A DNA stretch of 60,908 nucleotides from Clostridia bacterium. Its GTDB lineage: Bacteria > Bacillota > Clostridia > Christensenellales > CAG-138. Made by a program: the position numbers and the translations under genes. The notes beneath the pieces are model-generated. The model did no database searches, was not told the origin of the DNA, and saw nothing but the letters and a program-made list of their open reading frames with translations. The stretch is taken from NCBI GenBank assembly GCA_003246365.1, contig QKAN01000012.1:1-60908 (forward strand), given 5' to 3'. This document shows positions 2,337-37,366 of the stretch, in pieces (within the stretch, counting starts at the first letter, position 1; every line of letters starts with the position of its first letter).

Positions 2337-2885
2337 TTATTCCTGCGCGGTAAGATCGAGATCCATCAGAATCTCGTCGTAATAGGTTCCACTAACGTTG
2401 ATGCGCGCCTTGTGCCGCCCGACTTCGGCGAACCCGAAGCGCTTGTAAAGAGCGATGGCGCGATCGTTGCCTTCGCGAACTTCCAGCGAAAGCGTTCGCA
2501 ATACGCCGGTGCTTTTGGCAAAGTCGATCATCGCCTGCATAGCGATGCTACCCACGCCGAGACGCCAGTAGTCGCGTTTTACGGAGATAGCGATGCCGCC
2601 GACATGCGAAATACGCTTGCGCGCGGCGGCGCGAACATCGCAAAGCAACACGAGTTCGCTCCCGATAAATCCCAAAAACATCTTGGTATTTGGCGCAGCG
2701 AGCGTGCCGCGAATCCAGTCTTCCTCGCCTTCGAGCGTCAGCCCCTCGATGCCGTTTTCGTCCATCAGGAGAAAATCTGTTTCCGCGCCGACGACTTTGG
2801 CATAGGCGATCATATCCGCCGCGTCCTCAAGAGCAGGATCGCGGAGGATGAGCTTGCGCCCGTCCTTCAACAGATATTCGGTCAT
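2337..2885 (-). CDS. GNAT-family N-acetyltransferase
   Basis: 182 residues with a GNAT fold: the acetyl-CoA pyrophosphate-binding stretch YWRLGVGSIAMQ near residue 108 and the C-terminal ALYKRFGFAEVGR segment are typical. The start at 2885 is chosen over an ATG five codons further upstream because GGAGGA (complement of 2891-2896) lies five bases ahead of it. Lies between metG and tatD in one orientation with short gaps (31 and 21 bp), so it is probably co-transcribed. The substrate, a small molecule or a protein N-terminus, cannot be read from sequence. Confidence 0.9.
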   Translation of the reverse strand: MTEYLLKDGRKLILRDPALEDAADMIAYAKVVGAETDFLLMDENGIEGLTLEGEEDWIRGTLAAPNTKMFLGFIGSELVLLCDVRAAARKRISHVGGIAISVKRDYWRLGVGSIAMQAMIDFAKSTGVLRTLSLEVREGNDRAIALYKRFGFAEVGRHKARINVSGTYYDEILMDLDLTAQE

Positions 2886-2916
2886 AAAGTTCCTCCGCAA
2901 AGTTGATATAAAAGCG

Positions 2917-4890
2917 TTAGCGGACTTTCAATCCGCTCTCCATTTGGGACAGCGTGGTGACGACGGAGAGACGCTCGTCTTCCGCATCCGAGGCGGCGAG
3001 GATCATGCCGCGGCTTTCCACACCGCAGAGCGTTACCGGTTTGAGGTTTGCGACCAGAACAACTGTTTTACCTACGAGGTCTTCCGGCGCATACCATTTT
3101 TTAATGCCGGAGACGACGGTGCGTGTTTCGTCGCCGACTTCAACCGTCAATTTGAGCAGCTTTTTGCTCTTTTTAATCTCTTCGGCGGCGACCACTTTTG
3201 CTAAACGCAGGTCGACCTTCGCAAAGTCGTCATATTCGATTTCTGTGATCGTTTCTTCTTCCGGCTCTTCGGCTTTTGCCGCTTCTGCGGGCGCGGGTTC
3301 GGCGGCTGCTTTCGCTTTTTCCGCCTCGGCGGCGAAATAGGCCAGCTCCGCTTCGGCGTCGATGCGAGGGAAGAGCGCTTCGCCCTTATGCACGACGGCT
3401 CCGGCAACGCTACCGCCCCAACTGAGAGACTCATACGCCGTCTGCGCGCCGTTTAATCCCAGCTGTTCAAAGAGTTTCTGCGGTGTGCTGGTGAGAAACG
3501 GGGTAAGCAGAATGCCGATGATGCGAAGGCTCTCGGCGAGGTTATATAACACTGTTTTGAGTCGTTCCTGTCCTGCTTCATTTTTAGCAAGCGTCCACGG
3601 CGCGGTGACGTCGATGTATTTGTTGCAGGCGTTTACAAGTTTCCAGATTTCCGCCAGCGCATCGGGAATGTGCAGTTCGTCCATCTGCGCGTCCACCTTG
3701 GCGGGCAGTTCACTGGCAAGCTGGATGAGCGCCGCGTCTTCGTCTGCAACCGCAGCGGGGGCGGGAAGACTACCGCCGAAGTATTTATCGATCATCGCGA
3801 CCGTACGGCTCAAAAGGTTGCCGAGGTCGTTGGCGAGATCGGTGTTGATGCGCGCAATCAGCGCTTCGTTGGAGAAGGTGCCGTCCGAACCGAACGGAAC
3901 TTCGCGCAGCAGGAAATAGCGGATTGCGTCCACACCGTAGCGCTCGCAGAGCTTCACGGGATCGACCACGTTTCCCTTGGATTTGCTCATCTTGCCGCCA
4001 TCGAGAACGAGCCAACCGTGACCGAACACCTGTTTCGGCAGCGGTTCGCCGAGCGCCATGAGCATGATCGGCCAGATGATGGTATGGAAACGTACGATTT
4101 CCTTGCCGACGATGTGCACATCCGCCGGCCAGAATTTGCGATAGAGCGAATCGTCTTCGCTTCCCCACCCAAGCGCGGTAATATAGTTGGAAAGCGCATC
4201 CAACCAAACATATACTACGTGTTTATCGTCAAAATCGACCGGAATGCCCCACTTAAAACTCGTGCGGCTTACGCAGAGATCCTCGAGGCCCGGGAGAAGG
4301 AAGTTTTGCAGCATCTCGTTGGTGCGGCTGACGGGTTGGATGAACGTCGGATTATCCTGAATATACTGAATCAGACGGTCGGCATATTTGGAGAGACGGA
4401 AGAAATAGCTTTCCTCCTCGACAAGTTCCACCTTGCCGCCGCAGTCGGGGCAAACGCCGCCCGCCTCCTGCACCTGCCGGTCGAGCCAGAAGCTTTCGCA
4501 GGGTGTGCAGTAAAAGCCGGTATATTTCGATTTATAGATGTCGCCCTGGTCATAGAGCTTTTTAAACATCTTCTGCACGGCTTTGACATGATAGTCGTCG
4601 GTCGTGCGGATAAACTTATCATATGAAATATCGAGGAGCTTCCAGAGATCCTTAAATCCCGCGACGATTTCGTCTACATACTGCTGCGGGGTGATACCGG
4701 CGGCTTTGGCTTTGCGCTCAATCTTTTGTCCGTGCTCGTCCGAACCGGTCAGAAAGAACGTTTCGTCACCGCGCTGGCGATGATAGCGCGCGATGGCGTC
4801 GGTTGCAACCGTGCTGTATGCGTGGCCGATGTGCAGGCTCGCGCTCGGATAATAAATAGGCGTTGTGATGTAAAATGTCTTTTTTTCCAT
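2917..4890 (-). CDS. metG: Methionyl-tRNA synthetase with C-terminal tRNA-binding domain
   Basis: 657-residue class I synthetase that charges tRNA-Met in the cytosol. Visible signatures: the HIGH motif in SLHIGHAYS near residue 20, a zinc site (CTPC and CPDC) in the connective peptide near residues 130-150, KMSKSKGN near residue 300, and an EMAP/Trbp111-type tRNA-binding domain over the last ~100 residues (DFAKVDLRLAKVV to the end). An Ala/Glu-rich linker separates body and domain. The start at 4890 follows GGAGGAAA in the mRNA (complement of 4896-4903); an ATG 11 codons further upstream lacks such a site. First gene of metG-GNAT-tatD and preceded by a T-box leader with an AUG specifier. Confidence 0.98.
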   Translation of the reverse strand: MEKKTFYITTPIYYPSASLHIGHAYSTVATDAIARYHRQRGDETFFLTGSDEHGQKIERKAKAAGITPQQYVDEIVAGFKDLWKLLDISYDKFIRTTDDYHVKAVQKMFKKLYDQGDIYKSKYTGFYCTPCESFWLDRQVQEAGGVCPDCGGKVELVEEESYFFRLSKYADRLIQYIQDNPTFIQPVSRTNEMLQNFLLPGLEDLCVSRTSFKWGIPVDFDDKHVVYVWLDALSNYITALGWGSEDDSLYRKFWPADVHIVGKEIVRFHTIIWPIMLMALGEPLPKQVFGHGWLVLDGGKMSKSKGNVVDPVKLCERYGVDAIRYFLLREVPFGSDGTFSNEALIARINTDLANDLGNLLSRTVAMIDKYFGGSLPAPAAVADEDAALIQLASELPAKVDAQMDELHIPDALAEIWKLVNACNKYIDVTAPWTLAKNEAGQERLKTVLYNLAESLRIIGILLTPFLTSTPQKLFEQLGLNGAQTAYESLSWGGSVAGAVVHKGEALFPRIDAEAELAYFAAEAEKAKAAAEPAPAEAAKAEEPEEETITEIEYDDFAKVDLRLAKVVAAEEIKKSKKLLKLTVEVGDETRTVVSGIKKWYAPEDLVGKTVVLVANLKPVTLCGVESRGMILAASDAEDERLSVVTTLSQMESGLKVR

Positions 4891-31261: not shown

Positions 31262-32311
31262 ATGAATTTCTTGGATCTGGTATTTTGGAATAACACCATT
31301 TTGGATTACATCATTTTTATAGGCGCACTCATTTTAGGGTTCGTTCTCATTTTTGTCTTAGGACGTGTCGTTCTGCGGCAGATTGCCGCGCGGAACGAGA
31401 AAGAGCAAACGAAGTACGGCGACTTCATGCTGGCCGCAATCAAACGGTATCTGTTGCCGACGGCGTATTTTACAGTGTTCTATTATTGCACACGGCTGTT
31501 GACCATGGACGATAAAATCTCAAACATTGTTGGCGCTCTGACCACGCTGTTTGCAATCGTAATGGGCGCGATGTTTCTCTCCACGCTTACGGCTTACGCC
31601 TTCGGAAAGATGAACCTCGGCAAAGGGGAGAGCGGGGCGCTTGCTGTAAAGTGGCTGGTGCGTTTCGCAAAAGGCGGAATCTGGGTCATCGCGCTGATTC
31701 TGTTTCTCGATAACATCGGGGTCAAGATCACGTCTCTGGTTACCGGCCTCGGTATCGGCGGCGTCGCGATTGCGTTTGCGGCGCAAAGCGTGCTGACAGA
31801 TATCTTCTGCTTTTTCACGATATTCTTCGATAAGCCGTTTGAATTAGGAGATTTCATCATCGCGGGCGATCACATGGGTACGGTGGAGCACATAGGCCTG
31901 AAAACCACGCGACTGCGCGCGCTCGGCGGCGAGCAGTTGATCGTTTCGAATGCGGACCTGACCGGCTCGCGCATTCGCAACTATAAAACCATGGAGCAGC
32001 GGCGCGTACTCTTTTCGCTGGGCGTTACCTACGATACGCCTGCGGAAAAGCTGAAACTGATACCCGATTTGATCAAATCGATTGTCGACGACACGCAAGA
32101 CGCAACGTTTGCGCGAACGAACTTTGCGACATTCGGAGCATACAGCCTGAACTTTGAGGTCGTCTACTATGTGTTGACGGCGGATTACGACCGCTATATG
32201 CAGATCAACGAACAGATCAATCTGGCGATCAAGGAAGGCTTTGAACAGCTAGGCGTATCGTTCGCATTTCCGACGTCTACGGTACAGGTGCAGCCGCAGG
32301 AGCGGATCTAG
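31262..32311 (+). CDS. MscS-family mechanosensitive channel
   Basis: About 350 residues. N-terminal membrane helices (two to four), then the pore-lining TM3 and beta domain: GLGIGGVAIAFAAQSVLTDIFCF (core GLGIGGVAIAFAAQ) is the MscS hallmark, followed by PFELGDFIIAGDHMGTVEHIGL and RALGGEQLIVSNADL. It opens under hypo-osmotic stress to release solutes. AGGAGG lies at 31243-31248, 13 bases before ATG 31262; TTG 31253 is nearer (four bases) and would add three residues, so the start is not settled. The gene appears monocistronic. Confidence 0.92.
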   Translation: MNFLDLVFWNNTILDYIIFIGALILGFVLIFVLGRVVLRQIAARNEKEQTKYGDFMLAAIKRYLLPTAYFTVFYYCTRLLTMDDKISNIVGALTTLFAIVMGAMFLSTLTAYAFGKMNLGKGESGALAVKWLVRFAKGGIWVIALILFLDNIGVKITSLVTGLGIGGVAIAFAAQSVLTDIFCFFTIFFDKPFELGDFIIAGDHMGTVEHIGLKTTRLRALGGEQLIVSNADLTGSRIRNYKTMEQRRVLFSLGVTYDTPAEKLKLIPDLIKSIVDDTQDATFARTNFATFGAYSLNFEVVYYVLTADYDRYMQINEQINLAIKEGFEQLGVSFAFPTSTVQVQPQERI

Positions 32312-32337
32312 ACTTAGAAAGAGCAAGTTTTTCACTT

Positions 32338-32366
32338 GGGGACGGCCTATGTCGTCCTCTTTTTTA
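32338..32366 (+). terminator. Intrinsic terminator after mscS
   Basis: GGGGACG-gcctatgt-CGTCCTC followed by TTTTTT. It touches the 3' end of the converging rsgA gene. Confidence 0.85.
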
Positions 32367-33458
32367 ATAGTCCTGATCCGCTGTGCCGCGTTTACCGCCG
32401 GATTTTTGAAGCGCCTTGCTATACTTTGCAATTTCGGTAAACCGCTGTTGTTTTTGCTTGAGGTATTTTGCCTGATCTCCGGCATACTGGGACTCCCGCT
32501 GCAGCTTTTGATAGCTTTCGTATCTTGAGAGCGGGAGTTCACCGGAGGCGATTGCCGCCTGCACCGCACAGCCAGGTTCGGTTTCGTGGCGGCAGTTTGC
32601 AAATCGGCAGAGCGAAAAATACTGCTCGACATCCGAAAAAGATTCGCTCAATCCCGATGTGGCGTCCAGCATGCCGAGTTCACGCATGCCTGGCGTGTCG
32701 ATGATCATTAACCCGCTGTTTAGCCGTATCAGCTGTCGGTGCGTGGTGGTATGCCGCCCTTTGCTGTCGTCTTCGCGGATGCCGCTGACGGACATGAGTT
32801 CTTCGCCCGCAAGCGCGTTGACAAAGCTGGATTTTCCGACGCCGGAGGAACCGAGCAATACGACGGTTTTTCCGGATTGGAGATAGGGCGAGAGTGCGTC
32901 AAATCCATATCCGGTTTTTGCACTCACGGCAAACACATCTACCCCCGCGGCAACGCGCATTGCGCCATTCATTTGCTCGTCGAAACTCTCTACAAGATCC
33001 GCTTTGGTCAGCACGACGACCGGCACAGCGCCGGACTGCCAGGCAAGCGCAAGGTAACGCTCAAGGCGTCGCGGGTTAAAGTCGTGGTTGAGCGACTGCA
33101 TGATAAACACGCTGTCGAAGTTTGCGGCAACGGCCTGCTCGCCCTGACCCAACGTCGGGTTTTTGCGGGCAAAGTATGATCGCCGCGGCAGCGTCTGCGT
33201 GATGGTGCTGTCGCCAAGGTCGTTGTACTGGATTAAAACGAAATCTCCGGTCGTGGGAAACGGTTCCACACCGTCGTTAAAATAAACGGCGGATTTCAAT
33301 CTGCCGTAGCATTCTCCCCGATCGCTGACCAAAGCATAGCGTTCCTTGTGAACCGCGGTTACGCGCGCGGGGATTTCATTTTCCCGCGCGCGTTGTTCCG
33401 ATGCTGCCCGCAAAGCAGGTGAACATCCGTAAGAATCCAGCAAAGCTGTTTCGCTCAT
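32364..33458 (-). CDS. rsgA: RsgA (YjeQ/YloQ)-type ribosome-associated GTPase
   Basis: 364 residues: an N-terminal OB domain, a circularly permuted GTPase with the order G4 (LTKADL), G5 (VSAKTG), G1 (GSSGVGKSS), G3 (DTPGMRE), then a zinc knuckle CRFANCRHETEPGC. RsgA assists late maturation of the 30S subunit. It is longer than Bacillus YloQ (~300) because of a ~45-residue N-terminal extension, like E. coli RsgA and a class of paralogues in Clostridia. It is not beside prkC/rpe as the standard copy often is; instead its ATG overlaps the stop of an unknown small protein (ATGA), the end of a minus-strand operon with a structured leader. GAGGAAAAGGAC precedes the start. Confidence 0.93.
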   Translation of the reverse strand: MSETALLDSYGCSPALRAASEQRARENEIPARVTAVHKERYALVSDRGECYGRLKSAVYFNDGVEPFPTTGDFVLIQYNDLGDSTITQTLPRRSYFARKNPTLGQGEQAVAANFDSVFIMQSLNHDFNPRRLERYLALAWQSGAVPVVVLTKADLVESFDEQMNGAMRVAAGVDVFAVSAKTGYGFDALSPYLQSGKTVVLLGSSGVGKSSFVNALAGEELMSVSGIREDDSKGRHTTTHRQLIRLNSGLMIIDTPGMRELGMLDATSGLSESFSDVEQYFSLCRFANCRHETEPGCAVQAAIASGELPLSRYESYQKLQRESQYAGDQAKYLKQKQQRFTEIAKYSKALQKSGGKRGTADQDY

Positions 33459-33814
33459 GTCCTTTTCCTCACAAATAGTGCCGCAACCGCTTTTGCAATG
33501 TAATGCGGCGGTCTAGCGGGCGTTTCCGCGTCGTATGCCTGAAGCTTAGTGTCGCAGCCGCGGCACGGGTGCGGAGCAAAGATACTGCCGAATTGACCGG
33601 CGTTAATCGTTGACCCCTGCGCGGGATTCACGATGAAATTATGATGTTCGGGTTTCATAGTTCCCTCCGTAATTCTGGTTCGTCGCTTGCGGAAAGCGAT
33701 TTCACGCAAGCGCAAAAGCGCCCGAATGAATGTTTCCGCAATGGAATTGTCCGGCATTTGCCGGAGCGTTAACGCGCCATATGGCGCGAGATAAAGTCGG
33801 TTTTGATCGATCAT
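33455..33814 (-). CDS. Unknown small protein, 119 residues, with internal start
   Basis: No family recognised. The start at 33814 follows GGGAGGT with good spacing. A second strong site GGAGGG stands before an in-frame ATG at 33658 (residue 53), so a 67-residue product (MKPEHHNFIVNPAQG...) could also be made; the first ~52 residues (MIDQNRLYLAPYGALTLRQM...) look like a separate small protein joined by loss of a stop. The C-terminal part has a CRGC pair (HPCRGCDTK) that could bind metal and ends in basic residues. Its stop overlaps the rsgA start by four bases, so translation is probably coupled. Reading frame support is from ribosome sites and operon layout only. Confidence 0.6.
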   Translation of the reverse strand: MIDQNRLYLAPYGALTLRQMPDNSIAETFIRALLRLREIAFRKRRTRITEGTMKPEHHNFIVNPAQGSTINAGQFGSIFAPHPCRGCDTKLQAYDAETPARPPHYIAKAVAALFVRKRT

Positions 33815-33819
33815 TGCGC

Positions 33820-34011
33820 TTACCTCCCTGATAAAAACGCGAGAAGACCCTTTTGCCGGGCAGTATTCGCGTTTCGACTGCGGCGCATGGCCGCGCGGCG
33901 CGCGCGCCGCATTTCTTCTGTAGCGCAGATAACATCGCGCTGGTATCGCTCGTCGATCGCCGGCTGCGCCAAATAAGGCGAAGCAAGCCAGCAAACGTGT
34001 GTGTCAAACAT
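33820..34011 (-). CDS. Unknown small basic protein, 63 residues
   Basis: No family recognised. It starts at 34011 after TTTGGAGGAAAA, a strong ribosome site. The sequence opens MFDTHVCWLASPYLAQPAID and its second half is very basic (EEMRRARRAAMRRSRNANTA), suggesting binding to RNA, ribosome or membrane surface. It ends six bases before the start of the next small protein. First gene after a ~380-base leader that contains a short peptide and a terminator, in an operon ending with rsgA. Confidence 0.6.
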   Translation of the reverse strand: MFDTHVCWLASPYLAQPAIDERYQRDVICATEEMRRARRAAMRRSRNANTARQKGLLAFLSGR

Positions 34012-34047
34012 TGTTTTTTCCTCCAAATTCGGGTCGATGGTTGTTAT

Positions 34048-34116
34048 GGGCATAAAAATAGCCGTGATGTGCAGCCCTGTTAGGACTGCTCTCACGGCGG
34101 ATTCGGCGTTATGCCC
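34048..34116 (-). other. Long nested hairpin in the leader
   Basis: Three stacked pairings: GGGCATA with TATGCCC (outer), GCCGTGA with TCACGGC (middle) and GCAGTCCT with AGGGCTGC (inner, some mismatches), separated by asymmetric internal loops. The compact, ordered form over 69 bases is beyond what random sequence usually gives. Orientation cannot be fixed from the fold alone, but it lies in the leader of the minus-strand operon. Confidence 0.65.
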
Positions 34117-34131
34117 GCTGAATTATGTAAA

Positions 34132-34162
34132 TAAAAACGAGCACACCCGATCGATGTGCCCG
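34132..34162 (-). terminator. Leader terminator (attenuator) before the small-protein operon
   Basis: On the minus strand CGGGCACA-tcgatcggg-TGTGCTCG is followed by TTTTTATTT. It stands ~120 bases before the first gene and ~230 bases after the promoter, so transcripts must read through it. Confidence 0.85.
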
Positions 34163-34291
34163 TAAAATTACAGTTCTTCGAAAGGTTCTGCTGACAGACG
34201 CGAATCGCTTTTTTCGGGGGTAATCGAAAGAAACCTTCGAATACCGGTGTTTTTAAACCGAGAAAACCGTCTGCGCCTGAATATTCAGTTG

Positions 34292-34324
34292 TTAGGCTTG
34301 CGCCACCCTGATCTCATAAAGCAT
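34292..34324 (-). CDS. Candidate leader peptide MLYEIRVAQA
   Basis: A ten-residue frame (ATG complement of 34322-34324, stop TAA complement of 34292-34294) preceded by GGAAAGGAG, 12 bases upstream. It lies ~65 bases after the predicted transcription start and ~130 bases before the leader terminator. Ribosome movement on it could decide which hairpin forms. Short frames with good ribosome sites can occur by chance, so this stays tentative. Confidence 0.45.
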   Translation of the reverse strand: MLYEIRVAQA

Positions 34325-34504
34325 TTTTGGTATTTACTCCTTTCCGATTCCGCGTTGCGCATTTGCGCTCTGCCGACCGAATCATTACGGGCAGAGTATA
34401 GCATGCAATTTTTTCGGATTGCAAGAGAATTTTGCGAAAAAAATGATATATTTTTTCGCCATCCTACCGATATGCTTGTATATACCCTAATATATGTGCA
34501 AAAT

Positions 34505-34535
34505 AAAAAAATCCGGCACACAGGCCGGATTTTTA
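34505..34535. terminator. Intrinsic terminator after crcB
   Basis: AAAAAATCCGGC-acacag-GCCGGATTTTT, with A's and T's on both sides, so it can work in both directions. It lies 13 bp past the crcB stop codon. Confidence 0.92.
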
Positions 34536-34547
34536 ACCGCAAGAAAA

Positions 34548-34922
34548 TTACTGAACCAGAAGACCGGCGCCGTAGACTGCGAATACGCAGAGCGTGACGC
34601 TGAGCACCATATAGGTCAGCGCGACGACAGGACTTCCGCCTGTGAGCAGCTGATGGGATTCGACCGCAAATGTAGAAAAAGTAGTGAATCCGCCGCAGAC
34701 GCCAACCTTGAGAAACAGGACGGTGCGCGGGTCGAGATTCGTCGATCGTCCGGCGACGGCGATAATAAGACCGAGTGCAAATGCACCAAGGATGTTGATG
34801 GCGAGCGTGACGAGGGGGAAGCCGCTCTCGTGCCGGACAGGAACGAGACTGACGAGATAGCGCAATACGGAGCCGACCATGCCGCCAAGGCCGACGAATA
34901 CGCAATTGAGTAGGGTAGACAA
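34548..34922 (-). CDS. crcB: Fluoride channel CrcB/Fluc
   Basis: 124 residues with four membrane helices, the size of a Fluc subunit, which forms a dual-topology dimer that exports fluoride. Family marks: FVGLGGMVGSVLRY near the N-terminus, INILGAFALG in helix two and GGFTTFSTFAVE, which carries the Phe box and the Thr/Ser pore lining. Translation probably starts at TTG 34922, eight bases after GGAG; ATG or GTG options further upstream extend past the normal start. Only one gene is present, consistent with a homodimer. No fluoride riboswitch was recognised upstream. Confidence 0.93.
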   Translation of the reverse strand: MSTLLNCVFVGLGGMVGSVLRYLVSLVPVRHESGFPLVTLAINILGAFALGLIIAVAGRSTNLDPRTVLFLKVGVCGGFTTFSTFAVESHQLLTGGSPVVALTYMVLSVTLCVFAVYGAGLLVQ

Positions 34923-34973
34923 TTTGATATACTCCAAGCTGATGATGTTCGTGCGCACGCGCGCATTGCACAA

Positions 34974-35002
34974 ATCATAGCACAAATCGCAAATTCAGTA
35001 AA
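34974..35002 (-). promoter_or_regulatory. crcB promoter
   Basis: -35 TTTACT (complement of 34997-35002), a 17-bp spacer and -10 TATGAT (complement of 34974-34979). Confidence 0.65.
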
Positions 35003-35209
35003 ATGTTTTTCGCGTACACGTTCTTAACAACCAAAATTCCAAGAAAACTAGGATACATACAAATTGTCTCAGAAAAACAGTACCATGCAAGGTAATCGAA
35101 ATACTGTATCAGGTCGCCTTAAAAAACGCTTTAAAAAGCGGTATTAAAATACCATGAATGGTATATTTGTATTTCGTTAATCCGGAACATCCTGATTGAC
35201 GCACCATAC

Positions 35210-35239
35210 AAATATAAAAATGCCGCCCCGGAGGGCGGC
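35210..35239 (-). terminator. Intrinsic terminator after the GH3 gene
   Basis: On the minus strand GCCGCCC-tccg-GGGCGGC is followed by ATTTTTATA, 16 bp past the stop codon. Confidence 0.9.
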
Positions 35240-35254
35240 AATCTGAAATTGATT

Positions 35255-37366
35255 TTATAGTTGGAGTTCAAGCTTTACGGGGGACGATTTTGTGAGCGCG
35301 CGGCTCCGCGCATCCGGCTGACTGGTTCCGATATAGAGCGAGTATCGTCCGCCCGGGGAGAATCGATTGCCGTCGTCATCCACAACGGTCATAGATGCCG
35401 GGGCGACGGTTAAATTGACTTGCTTCTCTTCATTGGGAGCGAGCGAAATCCGCGCGAAACCGCAGAGCACCGGATTCGCCGGAGCAAAGGGAGAATCTTC
35501 CGCCTTTAGATAAAGCTGTACGACGTCTTCGGTTGCAACCGAACCGAAGTTCTTGACGGATGCTTGCACATGTAGGCTGCCGTCATCCTCGGATTTTGCG
35601 CTCGCGGTAAGAACGCGAACATCTCCATAGGTGAGACCGTATCCAAACGGATAAAGAGGTGTGCGCTCCAGATAACGATAGGTGCGACCGCGCATCGAAT
35701 AATCCGTGAATTCAGGCAGATGTTTCAAATCCTCGTCATGATAAAACGTAACCGGCAGTTTGCCGGAAGGGGAGCGTTTGCCGAAGAGTAGATCGGCGAC
35801 CGCCTTTCCGCCGCGTGCGCCGGGATACCATGAGCAGAAAACCGCGTCGGCTTTTTCTTGCGCCTCGGAAAGATCGATTGAACTGCCCGCAAGTAACACG
35901 ACAACGGTGGGTTTTCCGATTGCGAGAATGCGATTCATCAACTCCTGTTGCACTTCCGGCAGGAACAGATCGGGTTTATCGCCGGCTTCCATGCTGTTTC
36001 CGTCGTCCGGCGCTTCGCCTTCCAGCGTTTCGTCGAGACCGAGCACAAGCAGCACCGTATCGCTAAGTTCCGCAACGCTGACCGCCTCGCTGATTCGATC
36101 ATTTTCAAAGGCGAGCACTTCGGTCTTGCGGCGGTATAGATCGCAGCCCGGCGCATACAGCACGCGAACATCGTCTCCGCAAGCATCCTGAATGCCTTCG
36201 AGAACGGTGATATAGCGCGAAGAGGTACCGTGATAGTTGCCCGTGAGTGCTACGCGGCTGTCCGCATTGGGACCAATTACACCAATAGTTTTGAGCTTCT
36301 CTTTTTGCAACGGCAGAATACCGTTGTTTTTCAGGAGCACACAGGATTTAAGCGCCGTTTCCTGCGCAAGAGCCAGATGCTCGCGGCACTCTACGGTTTC
36401 GTAAGGAACCGAGTCATACTTGCTGCCCTCGCCCATAATGCCAAGCAGATAGCGCGTTGTGAACACGCGCTCGGCGGAAAGCGTAATCTGCTCCTCCGTA
36501 ATCAAGCCCTGATCGAACGCGGAGCGAAGCATTAGATAGACGGAACCGCAATTCATATCGCATCCGCTCTTAACAGCGAGAGCTGCGCTTTCTTCCGGAC
36601 TGGTGGTTACGCCGTGTCCGGTGTGAAAATCGATCAGCGCCCAACAGTCGGAAACGACAAAACCGGCAAAACCCCATTTGCTGCGTAAAATGTCGACAAG
36701 CAGCGTCTTGCTGCCGCAGCAGGGCTCGCCGTTTGTGCGATTATAAGCACCCATAACGCTTTCGACATTGGCGTCCTTCACAAGCGCTTCAAACGCAGGC
36801 AGGTATGTTTCCCATAGGTCTTTTTGCGTTGCGATTGCGTTGAAATGATGTCGTATGGCTTCCGGTCCGCTATGAACGGCATAATGCTTTGCGCAGGCGC
36901 TTGCGGTCATAACATCGTCCTCTCCTTGCATGCCGACAACGAACGATTTGCCGAGCTCTGCGGTCAGATACGGATCTTCGCCGAGCGTCTCATGACCGCG
37001 CCCCCAGCGCGGATCGCGGAAAATGTTGATATTCGGGGAGAAGAAGGTGAGGCCCTTATAGATATCGCGATCTTCTAATCTGGAAAACTCGTTGTACTTT
37101 GCGCGACCTTCCAGCGCGGTGGTAGCGCTGACTTTTCGTATCTCTTCCCGGTCAAACATTGCAGCAAGCGCGATCGCTTGCGGGAAGCTCGTTGCAACGC
37201 CTGCGCGCGCAACGCCGTGCAACCCTTCGTTCCACCAGTTGTATGCCGGAATGCCGAGGCGCTCTATCGCCGGAGCACCATATACGAGCTGGGACATTTT
37301 TTCTTCGAGTGTCATTTGTGCTACGAGTGCGCTTGCGCGCTTGCGTGCTTCTTCACGATTCCACAT
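35255..37366 (-). CDS. Glycoside hydrolase family 3, beta-xylosidase/beta-glucosidase
   Basis: 703 residues: an N-terminal TIM-barrel (WNEGLHGVAR; KHYAVHSGPE; GAYNRTNGEPCC), the catalytic Asp in FVVSDCWALIDFH near residue 240, the alpha/beta sandwich domain (VLLKNNGILPL; TGNYHG) and a C-terminal fibronectin-III-like domain. WNEGLHGVAR and YNRTNGEPCC are typical of the xylan 1,4-beta-xylosidase branch, and the neighbouring xylAB fit that, but beta-glucosidase or arabinosidase activity is possible. No signal peptide, so it acts on imported oligosaccharides. The start at 37366 follows GGAGG eight bases upstream; the open frame continues 75 codons further without a ribosome site or homology. Confidence 0.93.
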   Translation of the reverse strand: MWNREEARKRASALVAQMTLEEKMSQLVYGAPAIERLGIPAYNWWNEGLHGVARAGVATSFPQAIALAAMFDREEIRKVSATTALEGRAKYNEFSRLEDRDIYKGLTFFSPNINIFRDPRWGRGHETLGEDPYLTAELGKSFVVGMQGEDDVMTASACAKHYAVHSGPEAIRHHFNAIATQKDLWETYLPAFEALVKDANVESVMGAYNRTNGEPCCGSKTLLVDILRSKWGFAGFVVSDCWALIDFHTGHGVTTSPEESAALAVKSGCDMNCGSVYLMLRSAFDQGLITEEQITLSAERVFTTRYLLGIMGEGSKYDSVPYETVECREHLALAQETALKSCVLLKNNGILPLQKEKLKTIGVIGPNADSRVALTGNYHGTSSRYITVLEGIQDACGDDVRVLYAPGCDLYRRKTEVLAFENDRISEAVSVAELSDTVLLVLGLDETLEGEAPDDGNSMEAGDKPDLFLPEVQQELMNRILAIGKPTVVVLLAGSSIDLSEAQEKADAVFCSWYPGARGGKAVADLLFGKRSPSGKLPVTFYHDEDLKHLPEFTDYSMRGRTYRYLERTPLYPFGYGLTYGDVRVLTASAKSEDDGSLHVQASVKNFGSVATEDVVQLYLKAEDSPFAPANPVLCGFARISLAPNEEKQVNLTVAPASMTVVDDDGNRFSPGGRYSLYIGTSQPDARSRALTKSSPVKLELQL

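Follow-up and report, generated by a model that had tools for sequence, protein, structure and literature searches.

The stretch of DNA analysed here, hereafter the window, comprises positions 1 to 60,908 (60,908 nucleotides, nt) of contig QKAN01000012.1 from a Clostridia bacterium (assembly GCA_003246365.1; Christensenellales, CAG-138). Its minus strand, to which all window features below belong unless stated otherwise, holds a predicted operon ending in rsgA2 (32364..33458), the gene for a 364-amino-acid (aa) circularly permuted GTPase of the RsgA type. Directly upstream lie two small open reading frames, ORF1 (63 aa, 33820..34011, with a GGAGG ribosome site) and ORF2 (119 aa, 33455..33814, with the motif HPCRGC), and the start of rsgA2 overlaps the end of ORF2 by the ATGA at 33458-33455. 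A leader of about 380 nt separates the small frames from a promoter. A first-pass annotation of the same DNA had drawn this layout, i.e. a promoter, a leader of that length, 63- and 119-residue frames with ribosome sites and an rsgA gene joined by ATGA, and every part of it is present. Features that go beyond that annotation are a leader peptide of 10 codons (34324-34292), a start codon inside ORF2, and the standing of rsgA as a second, accessory paralog. The subject of this analysis is rsgA2 together with its leader.

The rsgA2 product belongs to the RsgA family, and not to HflX, since its domain scores far exceed the curated cut-offs (PF03193, 175.8 bits vs 30; TIGR00157, 166.9 vs 100). The translation shows GSSGVGKSS, DTPGMRE, TKADL and CRFANCRHETEPGC, which we take to be the G1, G3 and G4 motifs and the C-terminal zinc-binding Cys/His cluster. 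A conventional rsgA is encoded on another contig of the source genome. RsgA2 shares with the housekeeping proteins (RsgA/YjeQ/CpgA) the RsgA GTPase domain and the TIGR00157 match over cut-off, but it is only about 31% identical to the conventional copy, 72 residues longer (364 vs 292 aa), placed in a separate clade, attenuated and accessory. Within the genus of the window, rsgA2 occurs in seven of eight genomes; the eighth (G006, 93% complete) has the conventional rsgA only. We also inspected 40 further genomes, 39 chosen for holding a relative of the window gene plus one more (G718), and split the types by identity and length. The conventional type was found in 39 (37-47% identical to the conventional query), the window type in 39 (27-38%) and both in 38, i.e. 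38 of the 39 rsgA2 genomes examined also carry a conventional-type rsgA. For comparisons of loci we used the best 80 of 360 relatives (55-80% protein identity), which together with the window make 81 sources. After a length and motif filter, which retained 75 of 81 RsgA2 and 24 of 37 conventional candidates, a FastTree analysis grouped the 75 window-type proteins apart from the 24 conventional ones, with a support of 0.72 and on a long branch. Judged by sequence, rsgA2 is thus an extra gene beside a housekeeping-type rsgA and forms its own clade. Two of the 40 genomes (G843 and G847) hold a third RsgA-type match, 27-33% identical to the conventional query, which shows that there are further RsgA paralogs.

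The leader lies behind a promoter-like element (34395..34424) found by motif scan and in the genus alignment, with TTGCAA and TATACT 18 nt apart and a TG ahead of the -10 box. Taken alone, its 9/12 match is at chance level (3 sites vs 2.8 expected). All five aligned genus leaders (the window, L021, L022, L023 and L026) nevertheless retain TTGC at the -35 box as well as the full stretch around TATACT; the -35 box differs in its last two bases in L023 and in its last base in L026. Downstream, the Shine-Dalgarno (SD) sequence GGAAAGGAG (34337..34345) precedes the leader peptide MLYEIRVAQA (34292..34324), the stop of which is followed by CAACTGAATA. Among the 81 sources such a leader was detected automatically in 36; detection required a recognisable ribosome site and the post-stop motif, and the 45 undetected sources include contig ends and diverged leaders. 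The peptide has 10 codons in 26 of these 36, nine codons in three and 11-13 codons in seven, several of the longer ones containing a Met that would give 10 codons. Typical sequences in relatives are MTVFYEVIEP, MTVIFEVAFV and MIVREVVTS. Glu-Val occurs in 26 of the 36 peptides; the four among them that come from the genus have Arg-Val in its place. At its start the leader thus has a short frame, predicted to be translated, that is provided with a ribosome site, as in attenuators of the vmlR or hflXr type.

Upstream of rsgA2 the same order recurs: a peptide frame with GAAAGGAG, its stop, CTGAATA, a stem-loop termed P1, a near-invariant AACCUUUCGUGAAUACU and terminators 1 and 2, after which the relatives' leaders have a second ribosome site and then rsgA2. 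In the window, the arms of P1 (34195..34273) are CAGACG at 34273-34268 and CGTCTG at 34200-34195. The conserved block AACCTTTCGAAGAACTGTA (34169..34187) comprises an anti-SD sequence and the 5' arm of a proposed antiterminator hairpin. Terminator 1 (34132..34163) consists of ACGGGCACATCGATCGGGTGTGCTCGT and a T run, with a loop kept within the genus, and terminator 2 (34054..34098) of GCCGTGA...TCACGGC and TATTTTT. Two intrinsic terminators are thus predicted between the leader peptide frame and the downstream genes. Terminator-like sites number 14 in the region 32200-35300, vs 5.4 expected, and for both leader hairpins of the window the predicted fold is much more stable than that of shuffled sequence (z -6.4 and -5.7).

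The homologous P1 stem covaries outside the genus. In 24 of the 36 leaders, none of them from the genus of the window, P1 is 92.4% paired and 11 cells are changed on both sides, vs 4.1 in shuffled data (0/500). Terminator 1 is 92.7% paired, with 31 such cells vs 14.3 (0/500). By the cell and score measures, the covariation of both elements is found in the real register and is lost when the register is slid. A third element links the peptide to the conserved block, as the peptide's SD sequence is complementary to CCUUUCG by at least 6 nt in 31 of the 36 leaders, GAAAGG forms the longest SD/block helix in 28, and the pairing appears in single-sequence folds of several leaders. The window scored 4 nt in this test because the cut dropped part of its ribosome site; its GAAAGG is present and complements CCTTTC at 34185-34180. 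We propose that ACUGUA or ACUAUAAC may pair with bases just before, or reaching into, the foot of terminator 1, so that the ACUGUA...UACGG hairpin, the 3' arm of which overlaps that foot, would be the antiterminator. Its arms score 4.69 vs 4.20 for shuffled arms (0/500), a comparison that leaves relatedness uncontrolled and draws mainly on Lachnospiraceae-type leaders. Another candidate antiterminator, UGUGCC of the P1 3' arm with GGCACA of the terminator 1 5' arm, was rejected; it occurs in some clostridial leaders only and, by eye, not in the Lachnospiraceae and window types.

To avoid circularity, a covariance model (R2) was built from 29 leaders outside the genus. Over 102 kb it matched five loci only, namely the window (E 1.7e-5) and the four genus members in which the leader is complete, with E values from 1.7e-5 to 3.5e-4 over the five. 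Among 45 held-out loci it found 26 at E<=0.01 and 27 at E<=0.1, the additional one (L053) being weak (E 0.082). The leader is thus present in 61 of the 81 sources, namely the 29 in R2, which were not searched with it, plus 5 and 27. An earlier model, built with the window and many leaders, matched 35 of the 40 genomes at 36 places, once per genome with one exception; many of these matches hold by construction. Rfam at gathering score gave no match in the window, and in 12 relative loci it gave only a T-box and a tRNA, neither at the leader. The exact pattern AACCTTTCGTGAATNCT had a sole match in 398 Bacillota genomes, a chance occurrence inside rsmH, and a covariance-model scan of the same number of genomes hit 5 of 398, a figure that gives no prevalence, as the scan is insensitive (11 candidates scored per genome). 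Order-wide matches to the leader-core pattern in L109 (one mismatch, outside the genus) and in L115 (viral) look like chance and have, by eye, no leader context. By these comparisons the leader represents a putative attenuator family without an Rfam match that lies upstream of rsgA2 across Bacillota. The transcription attenuation suspected in the first-pass annotation is borne out by the leader peptide, by the covarying stem and terminator, and by this conservation.

The genes that share the leader or follow rsgA2 give a hint at function. By Pfam, the 49 frames directly downstream of rsgA2 include 17 GNAT proteins (Acetyltransf_1), six APH-type kinases and five methyltransferases. These frames were found mechanically, and some are probably not genes (e.g. 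those of L021, L025 and L026); at the other 31 of the 80 loci there was no frame or the contig ended. Many downstream frames overlap or abut the rsgA2 stop. A set of 33 coupled genes was chosen by hand among the first (49) and second (31) frames downstream; the full tally of 49 is the more reliable. In three genomes the leader is not directly followed by an intact rsgA2. In G718 it is followed by a 561-codon frame with GNAT and APH domains (L166, 3856-2174, minus strand). In G505 the leader precedes a methyltransferase gene, an RNHCP gene and a GNAT-APH fusion (L167, 3707-5413, plus strand) that is 86% identical to that of G718; the length of the fusion across the two loci is 561-569 codons. 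The bifunctional aminoglycoside enzyme AAC(6')-APH(2'') likewise has GNAT followed by APH. In G478 (L168, about 3940-3700, minus strand) the leader is followed by an 81-residue frame and an APH-family gene. The 81-residue frame has no Pfam match and, by eye, contains both ends of RsgA and no middle. Apparently, rsgA2 was lost in this genome and the switch was kept for the next gene. A second leader copy stands ahead of an RNHCP gene in G817, and in L085 (4571-8066, plus strand) two overlapping ABC exporter genes are coupled to rsgA2 behind the same type of leader. As predicted from their sequences, the GNAT, APH and methyltransferase companions have folds of drug-modifying enzymes.

From this anatomy we regard the unit, with moderate confidence, as an inducible accessory-GTPase operon in which an attenuator that senses translation inhibitors controls an accessory 30S GTPase, in the manner of HflXr and VmlR. 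Both the induction and the protection by RsgA2 are parts that we infer. In unstressed cells, ribosomes would pass the leader peptide quickly, the default folds would form and transcription would stop at terminator 1 or 2. If an inhibitor or another translation stress slowed or stalled the ribosome on the leader peptide, the upstream pairing would change, the ACUGUA...UACGG hairpin could then work as antiterminator, and RsgA2 would be made. RsgA2 would act near the decoding centre of the 30S subunit and restore or protect it, in analogy to HflXr and VmlR and the other ribosome drugs that they counter. Enzymes of drug-modifying folds would often be co-expressed from this switch in relatives. The small proteins of the genus, translated ahead of rsgA2, may be accessory ribosome-binding peptides, or their frames may tune rsgA2 translation by coupling. 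rsgA2 probably serves in translation stress or drug response and not in housekeeping. That the unit is a translation-stress module had been suggested before, with the small proteins at its core. The stress part gains indirect support from the companion GNAT, APH, methyltransferase and RNHCP genes of relatives; the core role of the small proteins is not supported, as ORF2 was found in one genus only and the leader and rsgA2 are widespread without it.

Spare ribosome GTPases under attenuator control are of a kind already known. HflXr, an attenuated second HflX, confers resistance to lincomycin and erythromycin (PMC6310831). The Listeria monocytogenes protein (lmo0762) resembles RsgA2 in being a second copy of a ribosome GTPase, in its attenuator with a short upstream frame and in forming its own clade (PMC6310831). 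It differs in that HflX binds the 50S subunit and splits ribosomes and in that its leader peptide contains RLR, whereas RsgA2 is of the 30S type and circularly permuted and its leaders lack RLR. The vmlR leader of Bacillus subtilis likewise has an upstream frame and a logic of anti-antiterminator, antiterminator and terminator, combining transcription and translation attenuation (PMC9226507); it controls an ABC-F ATPase, however, and its likeness to the rsgA2 leader is drawn from the published description. The same applies to the Escherichia coli toiL upstream frame at topAI, a short frame that senses several classes of ribosome inhibitors (PMC12121999) but controls a toxin-antitoxin pair through Rho. 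Streptomyces coelicolor has a pair of RsgA/EngC paralogs (SCO6149 and SCO5211), one member of which depends on WblC and tetracycline, and the WblC regulon also holds GNAT and methyltransferase genes (PMC7157823). Here, in contrast, control is exerted by a transcription factor, no leader is described in the portion available, and the comparison with RsgA2 does not imply orthology. In E. coli, deletion of rsgA lowers the minimal inhibitory concentration (MIC) of gentamicin 2- or 4-fold (PMC10295648). We found no description of an attenuated rsgA in the open-access literature searched (titles and abstract starts), so that in these sources the RsgA case appears not to have been described.

Several observations weigh against an inhibitor-sensing operon. 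RLR, the arrest motif of macrolide-type leaders, occurs in none of the 36 leader peptides (a looser +x+ motif is seen once, as KVR in L023, and not in the window peptide), and the last codons are variable; a drug-specific stall is therefore unproven. By other counts the covariation is less pronounced: P1 has 3 pairs with two-sided change vs 1.7 shuffled (22/500) and 7 further pair types vs 6.7 (360/500), terminator 1 has 4 pairs with two-sided change vs 3.3 (205/500), and the alignment that tested the covariation of terminator 1 had also supplied its structure. The 3' windows of the antiterminator test were shortened in the clostridial and window types, and the antiterminator hairpin is absent from the single-sequence fold of the window and from the genus consensus, being seen in the window by eye only. 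As to the companions, the 17 GNAT loci are not independent, many being closely related, and the genus of the window has no drug-enzyme gene downstream of rsgA2. None of the companion enzymes described here, nor the GNAT-APH fusion, reaches a curated cut-off of NCBIfam, and the commonest weak NCBIfam match among the hand-picked coupled genes is RimI (5 of 33); for both reasons, modification of ribosomal proteins is possible. Searches of plasmids with four leaders (L029, L038, L129 and L072 types) gave no match. Finally, cefotaxime is affected as well, its MIC falling 32-fold upon deletion of rsgA in E. coli, so the effect on drug susceptibility extends beyond ribosome drugs (PMC10295648).

A wider version of the inhibitor-sensing reading, which we put forward tentatively and would not call probable, is that RsgA2 ('RsgAr') is an antibiotic-inducible GTPase for 30S target protection or rescue across Bacillota. 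Its undescribed attenuator family would govern a regulon of GNAT, APH-type, GNAT-APH fusion, methyltransferase and RNHCP genes, perhaps directed against aminoglycoside-like drugs, and the nested small proteins of the genus would work with the GTPase on the ribosome. If this were true, many Firmicutes would carry an unrecognised drug- or stress-responsive switch before a second 30S maturation GTPase, and the theme known from HflXr, VmlR and TetM, i.e. protecting the ribosome instead of destroying the drug, would extend to an RsgA-type factor. With the conserved leader as query, further resistance-type genes that lack annotation could also be sought.

The alternatives are not all mutually exclusive, and the likelihoods that we attach to them do not add up to unity. 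The main rival, which would share most of the same anatomy and which we consider rather unlikely, is a sensor of ribosome assembly. The leader would respond to slow initiation or to a shortage of mature 30S subunits, e.g. in the cold or upon assembly defects, rsgA2 would be a back-up assembly factor under feedback, and the GNAT and methyltransferase partners would modify ribosomal proteins or rRNA. This is consistent with RsgA being a 30S maturation factor, with the RimI matches, with the zinc-ribbon-type RNHCP partners and with VmlR, a similar switch that is also induced by ribosome assembly defects (PMC9226507). The APH-type kinases (6 of 49), the GNAT-APH fusion and the ABC exporters, however, are ill-suited to ribosome maturation, and a patchy presence, with the leader in two of six genomes of one family, would better suit an accessory stress gene.

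Alternatively, the small frames could be central, encoding genus-specific peptides that are secreted or directed at the ribosome, with rsgA2 as helper or immunity gene. We judge this improbable, although it could account for repeated units of about 66 aa with strong ribosome sites, some of them clearly homologous, for purifying selection on part of ORF2, and for the co-occurrence of ORF2 and rsgA2 across the eight genus genomes. ORF2 is present in seven of these and G006 lacks both genes. Each of these seven copies has 117-119 codons, is ATGA-coupled to rsgA2 and has the motif PAQGSxxNAGQFG..HPCxxC. ORF2 was not found outside the genus: a search of 396 genomes of the order gave three strong matches, every one of them within the genus, and two weak ones (E 0.001-0.006) that look like chance. 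Conservation of the small frames next to rsgA in relatives is seen for ORF2 at the level of the genus and not beyond. Rather than the small frames, it is the leader and rsgA2 that are widespread. Of 30 loci examined outside the genus, 20 have only a short frame of 32-59 codons, with a strong ribosome site, that overlaps the start of rsgA2. rsgA2 has therefore probably long been coupled to an upstream frame, which the genus went on to elaborate. ORF2 itself is a genus-level addition under selection.

The proteins themselves give few clues. Neither has a family in Pfam or NCBIfam above cut-off, in agreement with the first-pass annotation, the sole match at E<=1 being a DMRT-like one for ORF1 (E 0.079, below cut-off), and PADLOC and PHROGs returned no match for either. 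The ORF1 product had been called very basic; with 12 Arg+Lys vs 6 Asp+Glu it is moderately so. It resembles a diverged repeat protein of about 66 aa of the genus (E 4e-5, in single comparisons) and is probably a diverged member of that group. A search with ORF1 alone in 61 genomes yielded no convincing relative beyond its own locus (best other E 0.0115) and missed the true neighbours; ORF1 is too diverged to serve as a search handle. In ORF2, an internal ATG at 33658 has a better ribosome site (GGAGGG) than the first start and would yield a 67-aa product (33455..33658). In ten pairs drawn from five of the seven copies (all but L024 and L026), the ratio of non-synonymous to synonymous differences per site (pN/pS) is 0.23-0.46 in the 67-aa part and 0.39-0.91 in the N-terminal part (52 codons). 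Because it is under the stronger selection, the 67-aa form is probably the main ORF2 product. Against a central role of the small frames, whole ORF2 evolves faster than rsgA2 (pN/pS 0.32-0.74 vs 0.13-0.21), and AlphaFold2 with seven sequences gave no confident fold for ORF2 (predicted local distance difference test, pLDDT, 52; predicted template modelling score, pTM, 0.21).

One or two units precede ORF2 in genus relatives where the contig reaches, and some are clearly homologous to ORF2 (L025, E 3e-7). L021, L022 and L023 have two more small frames between leader and ORF2 (about 2600-3150), one of 65-68 aa and then one of 109-141 aa with an internal start for 66-68 aa, the second overlapping ORF2 by ATGA. 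The N-terminal part of ORF2 also contains an inverted repeat, CCGGC-NNNN-GCCGG (33764-33751), which by eye recurs with a variable loop at the same codons in six of the seven genus copies (not in L026) and folds in the window with z -3.3; this suggests an RNA hairpin within the frame.

Control by charged tRNA, with a leader peptide that reads particular codons as in trp or his leaders, is very unlikely. A peptide of 9-10 codons with terminators downstream would fit such an attenuator, but there is no run of a single residue, only the Glu-Val of 26 peptides and the Arg-Val of four genus leaders recurring, and the downstream genes are not biosynthetic. Least probable of all is an anti-phage role, in which overproduction of RsgA2 would shut down ribosomes during infection, as E. 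coli RsgA inhibits T4 via ribosome inactivation (PMC10475562): for RsgA2, PADLOC gave only weak GTPase-domain matches (mad8, E 5.7e-5), the small proteins had none there, three leader patterns had no true match in 2.9 million viral contigs, and the partner genes are not known defence genes.

As to the neighbourhood of the unit, a gene for a CrcB fluoride exporter (34548-34985) lies directly upstream on the same strand, and Rfam detects no fluoride riboswitch in the window. By eye, crcB-like sequence also precedes the unit in L026. On the other side, rsgA2 is followed in the window by a convergent gene that we named mscS-like by eye.

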